In this document: one piece after another, positions 38,014 to 46,450 of the stretch
How positions within the stretch are numbered: position 1 is the stretch's first letter
Layout: every line of letters starts with the position of its first letter
Source: Streptomyces sp. NRRL B-3428
GTDB taxonomy: Bacteria; Actinomycetota; Actinomycetes; Streptomycetales; Streptomycetaceae
NCBI GenBank assembly: GCA_000721375.1
Contig: JOGW01000011.1
Span: forward strand, 244,376 to 308,375
Length of the DNA: 64,000 bases
Reading direction: 5' to 3'
Notes under the pieces: model-generated
Database searches by the model: none
What the model was told of the DNA's origin: nothing
Seen by the model: the letters and a program-made list of their open reading frames with translations, nothing else
Made by a program: the position numbers and the translations under genes

Positions 38014-38631
38014 ATGAGCCGCACCACCGCCACCGTCGCTGCGAGCCCCACCACCGCACCCGTCCCCGCGAGCCGCGCCCTGAGCACCCTCATGGTGGTG
38101 GCCGGCGCCCTCGGCACCCTGGCGTCCGCGATGCTCACGTACGACCGTATCGAGACCCTCGCGAACCCGGCCTTCGTGCCCGCCTGCTCCGTCAACTCGG
38201 TGCTCAGCTGCACGGACGTGATGGACACCTGGCAGGGCAATCTGCTCGGCTTCCCCAACATGCTGCTCGGCATCCCGGCCTTCGCCGTCCTGCTCGGCAT
38301 CGGCCTGGCCCTGCTCGCCGGCGCAGCTCTCCCCCGCTGGATGTGGCTCGGCGTCCAGGCCGGGGTCACGGCCGCGTTCGGCTTCGTCGTCTGGCTGATC
38401 AGCCAGTGCCTGTACGTGATCGGTGCGCTCTGCCCCTGGTGCATGCTCGTCTGGGCGGTGGTCCTGCCCCTCTTCTGGTACGTGACCACTCACTGCCTGC
38501 GCACCGGTGTTCTCCCCGCGCCCGCCGGTCTGGTCCGTGCCGTGACGGGGCACTCGTGGGCCGGGCCCGTCGTCCTGTACGGCACCGTCCTGGTGCTCGT
38601 GCTGACCCGTTTCGGCGACCGGCTGTTGTAG
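38014..38631 (+). CDS. Vitamin K epoxide reductase family membrane protein
   Basis: This 205-residue protein with four to five membrane helices probably reoxidises or reduces quinone in disulfide-bond formation. Four family cysteines are present: the loop pair Cys58 and Cys66 (PACSVNSVLSCTDVM) and the active-site CPWC at 140-143, plus an extra Cys132. The helix VLSCTDVMDTWQGNLLGFPNMLLG is characteristic of bacterial VKOR. Unlike many actinobacterial members it has no fused thioredoxin domain. The partner thiol oxidase is not in this window. It heads a rightward set that continues with a membrane protein and a regulator. Confidence 0.88.
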   Translation: MSRTTATVAASPTTAPVPASRALSTLMVVAGALGTLASAMLTYDRIETLANPAFVPACSVNSVLSCTDVMDTWQGNLLGFPNMLLGIPAFAVLLGIGLALLAGAALPRWMWLGVQAGVTAAFGFVVWLISQCLYVIGALCPWCMLVWAVVLPLFWYVTTHCLRTGVLPAPAGLVRAVTGHSWAGPVVLYGTVLVLVLTRFGDRLL

Positions 38632-39314: not shown

Positions 39315-40019
39315 GTGCCGACCGGCCCTTCCCGTCCCCCGCTGGTGCTCCTCGCCGTGCCCGAGGACACCCACGAGATGGTGCGCCAGGTTTTCAAGAC
39401 CCACCCGATCGACACGTTCGCCGTACACGACGGCCGCGCCACACTGCGCGCTCTGTACCGCCACCGTCCCGACGCCCTGGTGCTCAGCCTGCGGCTGCCC
39501 GGTCTGAGCCCCTGGCGCGTACTCGAACGCGTACGGGACATGAGTGAACTGCCGGTCCTGGTGGTGAACTTGACCTACGACGCCGATGACGCGGTCCGCG
39601 CGCTGCAGGCGGGCGCCGACGACTACATCACGCCCTGCACACCGGAACGGGTGCTCATCCCCCTGGTCCAGGCGCGGCTGCGGCGCGGCCGGTCCGCGGC
39701 GGCGCCCGCGGATCTGGTCGAGGACGGCTGGCTCACGGTCGATCTCGCCGCGCGCGAGGCCGTCGCGGACGGGCACTTCCTCGACCTGTCCGCCCTGGAG
39801 TTCGATCTGCTGAAGGCCTTCGCCCTCAACTCGGGACAGGTCCTCACCCGCGAGCTCCTGGTCGACCTGGTCTGGCACGAGCCGGAGGGCGACATCAGCC
39901 GGGTCAAGTACGCGGTGCACCGGCTGCGCGTCAAGATCGCGAGGGCCACGGGAGCGGCGCCGCCGATCCACTCGGTGCGCTCGGTCGGCTACCGGTACAA
40001 GCGGCCCGGGCCCGCATAA
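39315..40019 (+). CDS. OmpR-like regulator with a degenerate receiver domain
   Basis: The 234-residue protein has an N-terminal receiver-like domain (about 9-126) and a C-terminal winged-helix (about 130-232). The latter holds the DLSALEFDLLKAF, GQVLTRELLVDLVW and VHRLRVKI...HSVRSVGYRYK blocks of OmpR/PhoB. The phospho-acceptor aspartate is replaced: RPDALVLSLRLPG puts Ser58 where VLLDLxLPG is expected. The acidic pair at the N-terminus is also absent (LLAVPEDTHEM), and the conserved lysine of TKPF is lost (DDYITPCTPER). It therefore cannot be phosphorylated in the usual way and is probably an orphan, perhaps controlled by dimerisation or a ligand. GTG 39315 is the first start available after the preceding in-frame TGA. 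Confidence 0.88.
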   Translation: MPTGPSRPPLVLLAVPEDTHEMVRQVFKTHPIDTFAVHDGRATLRALYRHRPDALVLSLRLPGLSPWRVLERVRDMSELPVLVVNLTYDADDAVRALQAGADDYITPCTPERVLIPLVQARLRRGRSAAAPADLVEDGWLTVDLAAREAVADGHFLDLSALEFDLLKAFALNSGQVLTRELLVDLVWHEPEGDISRVKYAVHRLRVKIARATGAAPPIHSVRSVGYRYKRPGPA

Positions 40020-40315: not shown

Positions 40316-41359
40316 ATGCAGCTGATTGCCCTGATACCGGCACACAACGAGCAGAACGCCATCGCCGCGGCACTCGCCGGCCTCTACCGGCAGACCCGCC
40401 GCCCCGACCGCATCGTGGTCGTGGCCGACAACTGCACCGATGCCACCGGGCAGATCGCCGAGGCCTGGGGCGCCGAGCTGTTCGTGACCTCGGCCAACAG
40501 CGCCAAGAAGGCGGGCGCGCTCAACCAGGCGCTGGCCGGTCTGCTCCCGTCCCTCACCGAGGACGACGCGGTGCTCGTCACCGACGCCGACTGCTCCCTC
40601 GACCCCGTCTTCCTCGAAGTGGCGCTCGACCATGTCGCCCAGGGGTACGGCGGCGTCGGCGGGGTCTTCCGCGGTGACGAGGGCGGCGGTTTCGTCGGCC
40701 ATCTCCAGCGCAACGAGTACGCCCGCTACGCCCGCGACGTGGCCCGTCTGAACGGCAAGTGCCTGGTCCTGACAGGAACGGCCGCCGTCTTCCCGGTCTC
40801 CGTACTGCGCGAGATATCCCGGGCCCGGCTCACCGGGAAGGTCCCCTCGGGCGACGGACAGGGCGGGGTGTACGACACGACCGTCCTGACCGAGGACAAC
40901 GAACTCACCTTCGCCATCAAGCACTTGGGGTACGAGGTGATATCCCCCGCCGCCTGCACCCTGGTCACCGAGGTCATGCCGAGCTGGCGCGATCTGTGGA
41001 ATCAGCGGCTGCGCTGGAAGCGCGGCGCCGTCGAGAACTGCTTCCAGTACGGCCTCACCCGGATCACCTGGCGCTACTGGGGCCGCCAACTCCTCACGTT
41101 CGCGGGCGTGTTGGTGACCTTCGCCTATCTCGGCACGATCGTGTGGGCCCTGACCCACGACGGTATGCACGTCCAGCCGTTCTGGCTGGCGATCACCGGC
41201 ATCTTCGTCGTCGAGCGTGTGGTGACGGTACGGCTGCGCGGCCGACGCCAGATGCTCGTCTCCGCGTCGATGTACGAGCTGGTCCTCGACTTCTTCCTCC
41301 AGGCCTGCCACGGCAAGGCGTACGCGGACGCCCTGCTGAAGCGTCAGCGCGCCTGGTGA
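40316..41359 (+). CDS. Processive family-2 glycosyltransferase (cellulose/hyaluronan synthase type)
   Basis: The 347-residue enzyme has a GT-A domain with IPAHNEQNAI, ADNCTDAT, DAD (90-92), TED (192-194) and the QRLRW motif (230-234). These D, DxD, TED, QxxRW signatures define processive synthases. Two membrane segments follow (about 255-275 and 283-303), then an LDFFLQACHGKAYADAL tail. It is shorter than BcsA, without a PilZ domain. ATG 40316 has GAGGAGGT five bases upstream; the ctctcg/cgagag inverted repeat (40275-40280, 40300-40305) could partly cover that site. A 54-codon gene follows 32 bases later. Confidence 0.85.
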   Translation: MQLIALIPAHNEQNAIAAALAGLYRQTRRPDRIVVVADNCTDATGQIAEAWGAELFVTSANSAKKAGALNQALAGLLPSLTEDDAVLVTDADCSLDPVFLEVALDHVAQGYGGVGGVFRGDEGGGFVGHLQRNEYARYARDVARLNGKCLVLTGTAAVFPVSVLREISRARLTGKVPSGDGQGGVYDTTVLTEDNELTFAIKHLGYEVISPAACTLVTEVMPSWRDLWNQRLRWKRGAVENCFQYGLTRITWRYWGRQLLTFAGVLVTFAYLGTIVWALTHDGMHVQPFWLAITGIFVVERVVTVRLRGRRQMLVSASMYELVLDFFLQACHGKAYADALLKRQRAW

Positions 41360-41391
41360 CTCAATTCCTTTCCCTCTCCTAGGAGTTCACT

Positions 41392-41556
41392 GTGTACAAC
41401 AACGTCACCTCGGCCGCGGCCACCGGCACGGCCGCTTCCGGCGGCGCGCTCGCCGCCACCGGCGCCTCGGTCCTCTGGCTGGTCCTGGGCGCCTTCGCCC
41501 TGGTCGCGGTCGGTACGGCCATCGCCCGCATCGTTCCGCGCGGCAAGCAGAAGTAG
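41392..41556 (+). CDS. 54-residue membrane peptide with a LAATG sortase-type sorting signal
   Basis: GTG at 41392 has AGGAG at 41381-41385, six bases upstream, so this is well placed for translation, 32 bases after the glycosyltransferase. The peptide starts VYNNVTSAAATG, has LAATG at residues 20-24, a hydrophobic span at 25-45 (ASVLWLVLGAFALVAVGTAIA) and a basic end (RIVPRGKQK). That is the exact layout of a cell-wall sorting signal; LAxTG is the recognition motif of class E sortases used for streptomycete chaplins. There is no N-terminal signal peptide; charge distribution predicts N-outside. Only 23 residues precede the cleavage site. A 24-pair terminator follows. Function unknown; a link to the glycosyltransferase is inferred. 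Confidence 0.75.
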   Translation: MYNNVTSAAATGTAASGGALAATGASVLWLVLGAFALVAVGTAIARIVPRGKQK

Positions 41557-41561
41557 GACCG

Positions 41562-41614
41562 CGTACGAGGAAGGCCCCGCGACCTGTGACAGGTCGCGGG
41601 GCCTTCCTCGTACG
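41562..41614. terminator. Bidirectional terminator between the LAATG peptide and valS
   Basis: A perfect 24-base-pair stem (41562-41585 with 41591-41614) with a five-base loop starts five bases after the peptide stop and ends five bases before the valS stop. It can serve both convergent genes. Confidence 0.92.
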
Positions 41615-44247: not shown

Positions 44248-44383
44248 GACGACAGTTTAGTGGTGTCACAGCCCCGTCCCGAAACCGGAATTCTCGGTAA
44301 CGGTGTGACCCCGGTCGCCACGCTCCTCACAGGTTTCCGCCAGGATGTTCGGAACGTATAAGCATCTGGAGGGGAAGCACCGC

Positions 44384-45334
44384 ATGAGCTACAACCAGCC
44401 GGGCCCGTACGGCGGCCAGCCGCAGCAACCTTCGCAGCCGGGTCCGTACGGCCAGCAGGGCGGCTACCCGCAGCAGCAGCCGCAGCCCGGCTACGGCTAT
44501 CCGCAGCAGCCCCCGCAGCAGCCGGGCTACGGATATCCGCAGCAGGGTGCTCCGCAGGATGCTTACGGCCAGCAGCAGGGCTACAGCCAGCCCCAGCAGC
44601 CCGGCCCCTACGGCCAGCAGCCGCAGGCCGGCTACGGCCAGGTTCCCCCGCCGCCGCCGGTCGGGGGTGGCGGCAAGAAGGTCGGGATCATAATCGGCGC
44701 GGTCGTCGCTCTCGCGGCGATCGGCGGCGGTGTCTGGTACTTCATGGGCGGGGGCAGCTCGGGGGTCGCGGACGACGGGCCGCACAAGCTGACTACGCCG
44801 GAGACGGTGCTCAGTGAGTACAAGAAGGGCGACAGCAGCAGCGGCGGCATGACCGACTCGGACATGAAGGACGCCGCGAAGTGGGGCGTCACCGACCCCA
44901 AGGATGTCAGCGCCGAGTACGAGGTGAAGAACGAGGAGAACCCGCTCGCCGGGAAGATGCTCCAGTTCGGCGGCGTCTACGGCGAGATCGAGGACCCGGA
45001 GAAGGTCGTCGACAAGGTGCTGGCCGAGGTGGAGAAGGGCATGAAGGAGTCCAGCGGCTCCGACGGCGAGGTCTCCACAGTGGGCGAGCCCACCTCGACC
45101 ACCCGTGACGGTGCCCTCTTCAAGTGCCAGGAGGTCAAGTCGACCAACCCCGAGCCCGCCGCCGGTGAGCCCGCTTCGGTCAACCTGACGTACTGCGTCT
45201 GGGGCGACAAGAGCACGGTGGGCTTCGTCATGCCGATCGACATGGCGAGCATGCTCCTCGGCAAGGGCGGCTCGAAGGACGCCGCGCTCGACATCACGGC
45301 CAAGCTGCGCAAGGAAGTCCGCGTCAAGGCCTGA
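44384..45334 (+). CDS. Pro/Gln/Tyr/Gly-repeat membrane protein, paralogue A
   Basis: The 316-residue protein starts at ATG 44384 after GGAGGGG. Residues 1-90 are a low-complexity cytoplasmic region made of [11 protein letters not shown] and GPYGQQ repeats. A VPPPPPVGGGGKK hinge and one membrane helix follow (about 104-126, VGIIIGAVVALAAIGGGVWYFM). The ~190-residue outer domain has two cysteines (FKCQEV and LTYCVW) that could form a disulfide, and ends ITAKLRKEVRVKA. No enzymatic motif is seen. The next gene encodes the same architecture and nearly the same first 12 and last 10 residues, so the pair arose by tandem duplication. Divergent from valS. Confidence 0.85.
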   Translation: MSYNQPGPYGGQPQQPSQPGPYGQQGGYPQQQPQPGYGYPQQPPQQPGYGYPQQGAPQDAYGQQQGYSQPQQPGPYGQQPQAGYGQVPPPPPVGGGGKKVGIIIGAVVALAAIGGGVWYFMGGGSSGVADDGPHKLTTPETVLSEYKKGDSSSGGMTDSDMKDAAKWGVTDPKDVSAEYEVKNEENPLAGKMLQFGGVYGEIEDPEKVVDKVLAEVEKGMKESSGSDGEVSTVGEPTSTTRDGALFKCQEVKSTNPEPAAGEPASVNLTYCVWGDKSTVGFVMPIDMASMLLGKGGSKDAALDITAKLRKEVRVKA

Positions 45335-45436
45335 CGCGCACGTCGCAGGACACCACCAACGGGGCTTCCGTAACAAGGTTTGCCAAGTCCCCGCTTCGGT
45401 CAGGGTGCTGGAACACCACATGGAGGAAGACACACA

Positions 45437-46450
45437 ATGAGCTACAACCAGCCCGGTCCGTACGGCGGTCAGCAACCGCAGCAGCCCCAGGGCCCTTACG
45501 GTCAGCAGCCACAGCAGCCGGGTCCGTACGGCCAGCAGCCGCAGCAGCCGTACGGTCAGCCGCAGCAGCCCGGTTACGGCTACCCGCAGTCGACGCCGGG
45601 TCAGCCGGCTGCCGGTTACCCGCAGACCACGCCGGGCCAGCCCGCGTACGGTCAACAGCCTTACGGTCAGGACCAGTACGGGCAGCAGCCGCCGTACGGC
45701 GGCGTTCCCCAGCCCCCGCAGGGCGGTGGCGGCGGCAAGAAGGCAGCCGTCATCATCGGCACCGCGGTGCTCGTGGCGGCGCTCGGTGTCGGCGGGTACT
45801 TCGCGTTCGGCCGCGGCGGCGACGACGACAAGGGCGGCGGCGGCAGTTCGAACGTCGCGGGCGAGGGCAAGCTGAAGGACGACGGTCCGCATGTCATCGA
45901 GGCGCCCGATGAGGTGCTCGGCGGCGAGTACAAGCAGCTGCAGATCATGCCGGGCGCACCCAAGCCGAAGCCGGCCGAGCCCACCATCGGTATGCCGAAG
46001 CTGGTCGCGGAGAGCTCCAAGATGGAGAACCCGCTCTCGCTGACGGTGATCTACGCCAACCGCTCGGCCGAGGAGCTGCAGGACAAGTCCAAGGTCGCGG
46101 GCTCGAAGGCGATCACCTTCGTGGGCATGTACGGCAAGCTGGCCGACCCCAAGAAGGCGCTCGACGACGTCTTCACCGACCTGAAGAACGACAAGTCCCA
46201 GGGTCTGACGATGCTCGGTTCGCCGGAGTCCGTCGCACCCGACGGCCTGGACGGCGCACTCATGAAGTGCCAGCAGGCCGAGGCGAAGAACCCGGCGACG
46301 GGTGCGATCGACCGCCAGTACATCTGCATCTGGGCCGACTACAGCACCATCGGTGTGGGCATCCCGGCCAAGGACGGCAAGGGCACGCCGCTGGACTACT
46401 CGGCGGAACTGACCGCCGATCTGCGCAAGGAAGTCCGCGTCGCCGGCTGA
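45437..46450 (+). CDS. Pro/Gln/Tyr/Gly-repeat membrane protein, paralogue B
   Basis: This 337-residue paralogue of the preceding gene starts at ATG 45437 with GGAGGA upstream. The tail [22 protein letters not shown] is longer and more regular ([17 protein letters not shown]). The membrane helix is at about 105-125 ([23 protein letters not shown]). The outer domain again has a cysteine pair ([18 protein letters not shown]) and ends [16 protein letters not shown] repeats at 45440-45680 come from this coding repeat. The 102-base spacer between the paralogues resembles the region upstream of the first, consistent with duplication of a unit with its promoter. Confidence 0.85.

Follow-up and report, generated by a model that had tools for sequence, protein, structure and literature searches.

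The analysed window, a stretch of 64,000 nucleotides from a Streptomyces genome of 8.57 Mb, contains a gene for a glycosyltransferase (GT2) followed closely, on the same strand, by a gene for a mini-protein. The features of this locus are:

39315..40019, + strand: OmpR-type response regulator, upstream of GT2 (Pfam scan)
40316..41359, + strand: GT2 gene, 347 aa, PgaC/HAS/BcsA-like processive glycosyltransferase (family scans, structure model)
41381..41385, + strand: AGGAG ribosome-binding site of the peptide gene, at the same position in most homologues
41392..41556, + strand: mini-protein gene, 54 codons, GTG start, TAG stop
41395..41397, + strand: codon of Tyr2, the most general residue of the N-tail (homologue listing)
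41449..41463, + strand: LAATG, sorting motif of the class E type, peptide residues 20-24 (read from sequence)
41464..41526, + strand: membrane span of 21 residues, peptide residues 25-45 (hydrophobic run)
41527..41553, + strand: basic tail RIVPRGKQK, peptide residues 46-54 (read from sequence)
41562..41614, no strand: perfect inverted repeat, 25 bp with a 3-nt loop, between the peptide gene and valS (direct reading)

The GT2 stop codon and the peptide gene are separated by 32 nt (41360-41391). The 54-residue product of the ORF, as read from the window sequence, is MYNNVTSAAATGTAASGGALAATGASVLWLVLGAFALVAVGTAIARIVPRGKQK. Residues 1-19 are uncharged and have no hydrophobic core, and no N-terminal signal peptide was found by reading. 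LAATG, the span (best 19-residue mean hydropathy 2.42) and the basic tail follow in the order known from class E sortase substrates, namely a C-terminal LAxTG, a span and a basic tail. The layout reported in an earlier sequence-only reading, a complete sorting signal with neither a protein attached to it nor an export signal, was confirmed. A low-confidence structure model (pLDDT 73.8) consists of a single helix from residue 5 to residue 47. The Pfam scan of the peptide returned no family, only a chance match to PufX (E 0.64), and no chaplin domain.

Downstream of the peptide gene, valS is encoded on the opposite strand, and the intervening inverted repeat is probably a shared terminator of both genes. 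It was missed by the terminator scan because it has no T-run; neither promoter nor terminator scans gave a match at the locus. The OmpR-type response regulator is a possible regulator of the pair, and in Mangrovactinospora gilvigrisea, which belongs to another genus and shares the valS and clpX gene order, a response-regulator frame likewise precedes the GT2 and peptide genes. A VKOR-family (vitamin K epoxide reductase) gene is located upstream of the response regulator (38014-38631). Elsewhere in the window, two neighbouring genes (44345-45334 and 45434-46450) encode Pro/Gln/Gly-rich one-span proteins with similar N-termini and no Pfam match at E ≤ 1.

The GT2 shows the characteristics of processive membrane GT2 synthases (HAS, BcsA, chitin synthase), specifically, the fold, DxD, TED and QxxRW motifs and C-terminal membrane helices. 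DxD, TED and the Q and RW residues of QxxRW are invariant across 63 aligned homologues, and the distance from QxxRW to the C-terminus is 113-115 residues in all 119 homologues with a readable QxxRW among the 120 listed. The closest homologues (P0006-P0010) are also 347 aa long, and the nearest ones include a protein of 92% identity in Streptomyces sp. Hyaluronan synthase is the best match of the structure model, with an archaeal mannosyltransferase (6yv7) ranking first by E-value in Foldseek. The alignment with the Chlorella virus hyaluronan synthase, at 10-11% identity, begins at residue 82 of the solved chain, and the first, N-terminal membrane helices of that enzyme are missing from the window GT2 model. 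A PDB sequence search matched GT2 domains only, and the best NCBIfam match, PgaC/IcaA (TIGR03937), scored 63.8 bits against a cut-off of 422.3. The protein is most likely a processive, channel-forming polysaccharide synthase of the hyaluronan, PNAG or cellulose synthase kind.

Comparative sequence evidence indicates that the ORF at 41392-41556 is a real gene. Its short length would suit a chance ORF, as would the rarity of the window's own sequence type, for which a strict peptide search (E ≤ 1e-6) of 392 Streptomyces genomes returned the source genome and two weaker relatives. However, four peptide homologues have 77-83% identity, relatives are conserved in other genera and in phages, and their pN/pS lies far under 1. 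For 19 homologues of the MYGR type, pN was 0.054 and pS 0.378, the corresponding values being 0.010 and 0.427 for the N-tail (residues 2-17), 0.004 and 0.411 for the LAATG codons and 0.087 and 0.339 for residues 23-50. In this group, purifying selection is strongest on the N-tail and the motif, and the helix is less constrained. The scan background is also close to zero. Small ORFs combining a ribosome site, L[AP]xTG, a membrane span and a basic tail were sought in 422,081 bases (the window and loci of at least 7,900 bases), giving 20 matches, all of them GT2-locus peptides; this set was chosen for GT2 or peptide, its informative part being that no further ORFs were detected. For PF13641, 75 matches were found in 4 genomes and 30 loci were read. 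The scan was positive in 5 of them, all belonging to this GT2 clade, and in none of 24 others, while a sixth clade member (L224) has the peptide and failed the ribosome-site filter. The same scan of 81 other loci (262,451 bases) as a control gave 3 matches unconnected with this GT2. Selection, conservation and scan background together refute a chance ORF, to which we give practically no credence.

A GT2 search of the 392 Streptomyces genomes at E ≤ 1e-60 gave 46 matches in 42 genomes, and all 46 loci were read downstream. An adjacent L[AP]xTG mini-ORF, starting 18-82 nt after the GT2 gene, is present in 36. The ten others comprise one peptide broken by an apparent frameshift right after LAATG (L050), one LPVTG peptide that lies, together with a sortase ORF, at a distance of about 1 kb on the opposite strand (L046/L092), three peptides with a changed motif (LAVSG in L055, LSVKG and LSAKG in L083 and L086), one locus whose contig ends 26 nt past the GT2 gene (L062) and four members of a related clade (L084, L085, L087 and L088) without a mini-peptide, in which the GT2 has a C-terminal membrane extension. 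A natural GT2-peptide fusion was considered for these four and rejected: their extension matches the peptide profile with a probability of only 8, and the GT2 ends are uniform in the 119 homologues mentioned above.

Beyond the genus, a class-level sample of 236 genomes was searched, four of its GT2-bearing genomes also being part of the genus sample. With the GT2 model, 34 matches were obtained in 30 genomes, and with the peptide model 26 matches in 24 genomes (E ≤ 0.001). All 15 peptide matches at E ≤ 2e-6, and likewise one at 1.5e-5, lie directly 3' of a GT2 gene found in the separate search; the remaining 10 fall within open frames that are 427-1060 aa long, and the genomes concerned gave no such GT2 match. 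Thirty loci were read, a set that leaves out the GT2 matches G487:C5 and G547:C140. They comprise 15 with an L[AP]xTG peptide, 3 with a MYNN-type peptide lacking the motif, 8 with a different small one-helix ORF lacking the motif (LLPxS type), 3 with a longer frame that has an LLPxS-like beginning and 1 that is partly masked and was left unjudged. The LLPxS-type ORFs lie behind distant GT2s, and hhalign gave them a weak match to the peptide profile (probability 85.7) that spans helix and tail.

In a profile search, 5.8 billion proteins yielded 136 peptide homologues at E ≤ 1, of which 120 are listed; proportions among them are not unbiased, because only candidates sharing short words with the query were scored. 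L[AP]xTG is present in 98 of the 120 and absent in 22. The sequence-only reading had pointed to YNNVTSA as a potentially conserved N-terminal string, and of this the tyrosine proved general (at the conserved start, 99 listed homologues contain MY, 19 contain MA[ND]Y and 2, with truncated or misread starts, contain neither), the rest of the string not. The other general feature is [RK]..P directly after the span, a pattern of our own definition found in 118 of the 120. Named sources include Streptomyces, Microtetraspora, Nonomuraea, Actinomadura, Jiangella, Phytoactinopolyspora and Arsenicicoccus, and named entries are mostly called hypothetical protein and in a few cases peptidase or MFS transporter. 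Among the 96 listed homologues with the motif that were measured, the tail up to the motif Thr has 14-25 residues in 94 and 30 in one; the remaining value of 9 is an artefact of an early LPATG in P0181 that was caught ahead of LAFTG. By direct count, the tail measures 23 residues in the window peptide, 12 in phage Count and 10 in viral contig L242. The net charge of the N-tail is 0 or +1 in 91 of the 96, and the last 15 residues carry +2 to +5 in 83.

Distances between GT2s and between their peptides correlate (30 pairs, rho 0.673, a value reached in none of 5000 permutations). This is expected if the two genes descended as a pair, and shared descent alone can give such a correlation. On a GT2 tree of 43 rows, the LA label requires 8 changes, the absence of a motif 6 and LP 2, which means several losses or gains of the motif. 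Where the motif is gone, the helix and the [RK]..P tail persist. Since the motif is not universal among GT2-paired peptides, the peptide is first of all a GT2 partner.

The pair is also carried by mobile elements. GT2 homologues of 65-68% identity were found in 9 Microbacterium phage records, and in the four whose downstream ORFs were read (Merry, Tyrumbra, RobsFeet and Count), an MYN..LAATG peptide of 50-51 aa follows 10-12 nt after the GT2 gene. All eight IMG/VR contigs read that have a near-complete GT2 match likewise contain the mini-ORF, a count that omits the partial-match loci L238, L240 and L243. Their motifs are LAATG, LPFTG, LAWTG, LAFTG (two), LAMTG and LPQTG (two), and the LAATG contig has the same length as phage Fireman. 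Scanning the viral contig collection with the single window GT2 gave no match. The two LPQTG contigs encode GT2s of just 25-26% identity in AT-rich sequence, with the same peptide layout, and from their sequence look to us like Bacillota phages. With their distant GT2 as query, a second phage search matched 19 records, of which 5 new ones were read. In Sparcetus, AWGoat and Cantare, an MYG..LAxTG ORF overlaps the GT2 stop codon, and the QxxRW string is absent from these GT2s. No mini-ORF was found in Streptococcus satellite phage Javan622 (270 nt past the GT2 gene and one annotated ORF, one strand) or in Lactobacillus phage LpeD (420 nt past the GT2 gene, one strand). Overall, the mini-ORF is present in 7 of the 9 GenBank phages read, both exceptions being Bacillota phages with a related GT2; Sunny, Javan625, RikSengupta, TinyMiny, SilentRX and duplicate records are omitted from this count. 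The partnership of GT2 and peptide is well supported by linkage, reciprocity and phage carriage.

Some of these elements carry further genes related to polysaccharides. Microbacterium phages with the pair have a gene named UDP-glucose dehydrogenase (L198 7983-8771, L197 8189-8860), with a Pfam match to one domain only, which recalls the chloroviruses with their hyaluronan synthase and dehydrogenase genes. In an Embleya plasmid record, the pair is followed by a NodB-like polysaccharide deacetylase (L201 5349-6077). Because the list of the 25 most widespread neighbour families does not contain it, this family was not used for naming the polymer.

With regard to a processing enzyme, four class E sortases score over cut-off in the genome of the window. 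In one class-level genome (G451), GT2, an LAMTG peptide and a sortase form an operon (L179 5244-7159) in which the peptide stop overlaps the sortase start; this sortase, which also matches Pfam Sortase, reaches 140 bits for class E, where the cut-off is 160. The LPxTG-type Streptomyces loci have a sortase ORF beside the peptide in 5 of 5 cases, class E over cut-off in all 3 scanned. In another genome (G095), a compact operon of GT2, mini LxxTG peptide and class E sortase is followed by a TetR-type regulator gene (L191 6422-8380). Across 28 neighbourhoods, a simple gene caller found a sortase in 7, beside the peptide in 4 and at 6-8 kb in 3; since only 4 are adjacent, a sortase encoded at a distance would have to serve most LAxTG pairs. 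The Jiangella-type linkage, with 6-8 kb of unrelated genes in between, was considered and excluded from the adjacency count. At the genome level, a comparison in which the thirteenth group member is a partly masked locus, a class E match is present in 12 of 12 motif-bearing genomes tested (over cut-off in 11) and in 12 of 14 genomes without the motif (over cut-off in 8). The motif thus occurs together with the enzyme, whereas the enzyme is also found without the motif. Motif loss through sortase loss was rejected, as 8 of the 14 motif-free genomes retain a class E sortase over cut-off, from which it also follows that the pair can live without the signal. In G474 and G407 (L155, L156), LPFTG small ORFs are located near class E sortase genes, and the GT2-paired peptide there has lost its motif. 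The close GT2 link of 32 bases noted in the sequence-only reading is therefore real: the ORF and L[AP]xTG are conserved beside GT2 homologues, and two lineages have a class E sortase gene directly next to that of the peptide. That reading had made its interpretation depend on LAxTG and the ORF being conserved next to such homologues, and it withstood this test, an ORF with L[AP]xTG being present in 36 of 46 Streptomyces loci and 15 of 30 class-level loci.

We consider it fairly probable that the peptide is a dedicated membrane partner of the synthase, that it is processed by a class E sortase and that its tail is transferred to peptidoglycan, tying the polymer or its export to the wall. The peptide would insert without a signal peptide, placing the N-tail outside and the basic tail inside, a topology suggested by the N-tail net charge of 0 or +1 and the charge of +2 to +5 over the last 15 residues. 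N-out insertion through YidC has a precedent in the Pf3 phage coat protein. The inserted peptide would work together with the adjacent GT2, presumably in contact with it, and a class E sortase would recognise LAATG and cut between T and G; we infer this processing from the motif, the selection pattern and the operons. The tail of 23 residues with its Tyr would then be joined to a peptidoglycan precursor and could anchor to the wall either the polymer or the beginning of its export. Any cargo or function of the transferred tail is speculative. By our argument, it is too short to serve as a surface protein of its own because it nearly always has 10-25 residues. The sequence-only reading had likewise proposed wall linkage of the peptide and help in attaching or exporting the polymer, and these points are kept as inferred.

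A more specific version, which we regard as doubtful, is a protein-primed, sortase-anchored polysaccharide. The GT2 would start or join the polymer on the N-tail, with the nearly universal Tyr at position 2 or 4 as the obvious site, tail and glycan would emerge together, and the sortase would pass the tail to lipid II. Phages with the same cassette would use the host sortase to re-coat their host, with the motif following the host enzyme (LAxTG in actinophages, LPQTG in the two Bacillota-like contigs). A glycan on the peptide tail is speculation.

The main rival to a sortase-processed synthase partner is a membrane helper comparable to PgaD or IcaD, whose helix would supply a membrane segment missing from the short GT2. 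The sorting signal would then serve for trimming, release or gating or be dispensable, and cutting would end or switch the help with no attachment of polymer. The motif-free lineages, which retain the helix and the [RK]..P tail, favour such a helper, as do the weak match of the LLPxS-type ORFs to the profile over helix and tail and the alignment of the GT2 model to hyaluronan synthase from residue 82 on, without the first helices. However, the selection pattern disfavours it, the tail and motif rather than the helix being most constrained in the MYGR group, and so do the class E sortase genes located beside the peptide in two lineages; further, the extension of the four peptide-less GT2s is unlike the peptide profile. 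We see this helper as a somewhat unlikely explanation. The product could also be a short wall-fixed peptide acting alone through surface charge or hydrophobicity, with the GT2 merely co-transcribed, and hydrophobic class E wall-anchored proteins of Actinoplanes do shape surfaces (PMC13251363). This is improbable given a released tail of 10-25 residues in nearly all forms and a GT2 pairing that persists across genera and phages. The sequence-only reading had also raised a sortase decoy, and a complete signal without a protein would indeed suit a decoy or regulator that occupies the sortase. Nothing in the distribution supports this: what is conserved is a pairing with a single GT2 clade, not one with sortases at large, and members without the motif exist, which makes it the least plausible function considered here.

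As described in earlier papers, class E sortases with LAxTG substrates are known (PMC5148588, PMC3123327, PMC13251363). These substrates, the Streptomyces chaplins and Actinoplanes CwpA/CwpB, share LAxTG, the span and the basic tail with the window peptide, whose genome encodes class E sortases, but the window peptide differs in having no export signal, no protein domain and a GT2 partner. MatAB and CslA make surface polysaccharides in Streptomyces by means of GT2 enzymes (PMC5972031). MatB is a GT2-CE4 fusion, unlike the window GT2, and no mention of a sortase-type partner was seen in that paper, in which the word sortase does not occur. In the open-licence literature, no report was found that describes a mini LAxTG peptide as the partner of a GT2. 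The two-gene module described here joins sortase anchoring and processive polysaccharide synthases, which we did not find joined in print, and is met repeatedly, both in several families of actinobacteria and in unrelated phages. It suggests that a surface polymer, or its synthesis, is linked to the cell wall by a route so far unrecognised, and that the smallest sortase substrates have been overlooked. If sortase handles the peptide, the module would offer a simple genetic handle on how Gram-positive walls retain secreted polysaccharides, and would open to study an alteration of the host surface brought about by phages. Should the tail bear a glycan, that glycan would be bound to peptidoglycan via a peptide of only 10-25 residues and, if proven, the system would be categorically new.

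Two known families can be compared with the window peptide. NF058583 (LAXTG_small_WW, 'LAXTG motif-containing small protein', NCBIfam) aligns with residues 1-50 at E 4.5e-6 and shares 54 positions and LAxTG with it, and it was rejected as the family of the peptide on its cut-off (26.2 bits versus 65). No mention of GT2 pairing was seen in its record, and none of 295 Streptomyces genomes has a member over cut-off. Its equation with the phage or Microbacterium type was likewise rejected, as two of three phage peptides scanned gave no match and one reached 26.1 bits. The other family is that of the small membrane partners of PNAG synthases, PgaD of PgaC-PgaD and IcaD of IcaA-IcaD. The peptide has no PgaD or IcaD family match in Pfam or NCBIfam. 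These systems likewise combine a GT2 synthase with a small adjacent membrane protein, and the window peptide differs from PgaD and IcaD by its one span and its sorting signal.
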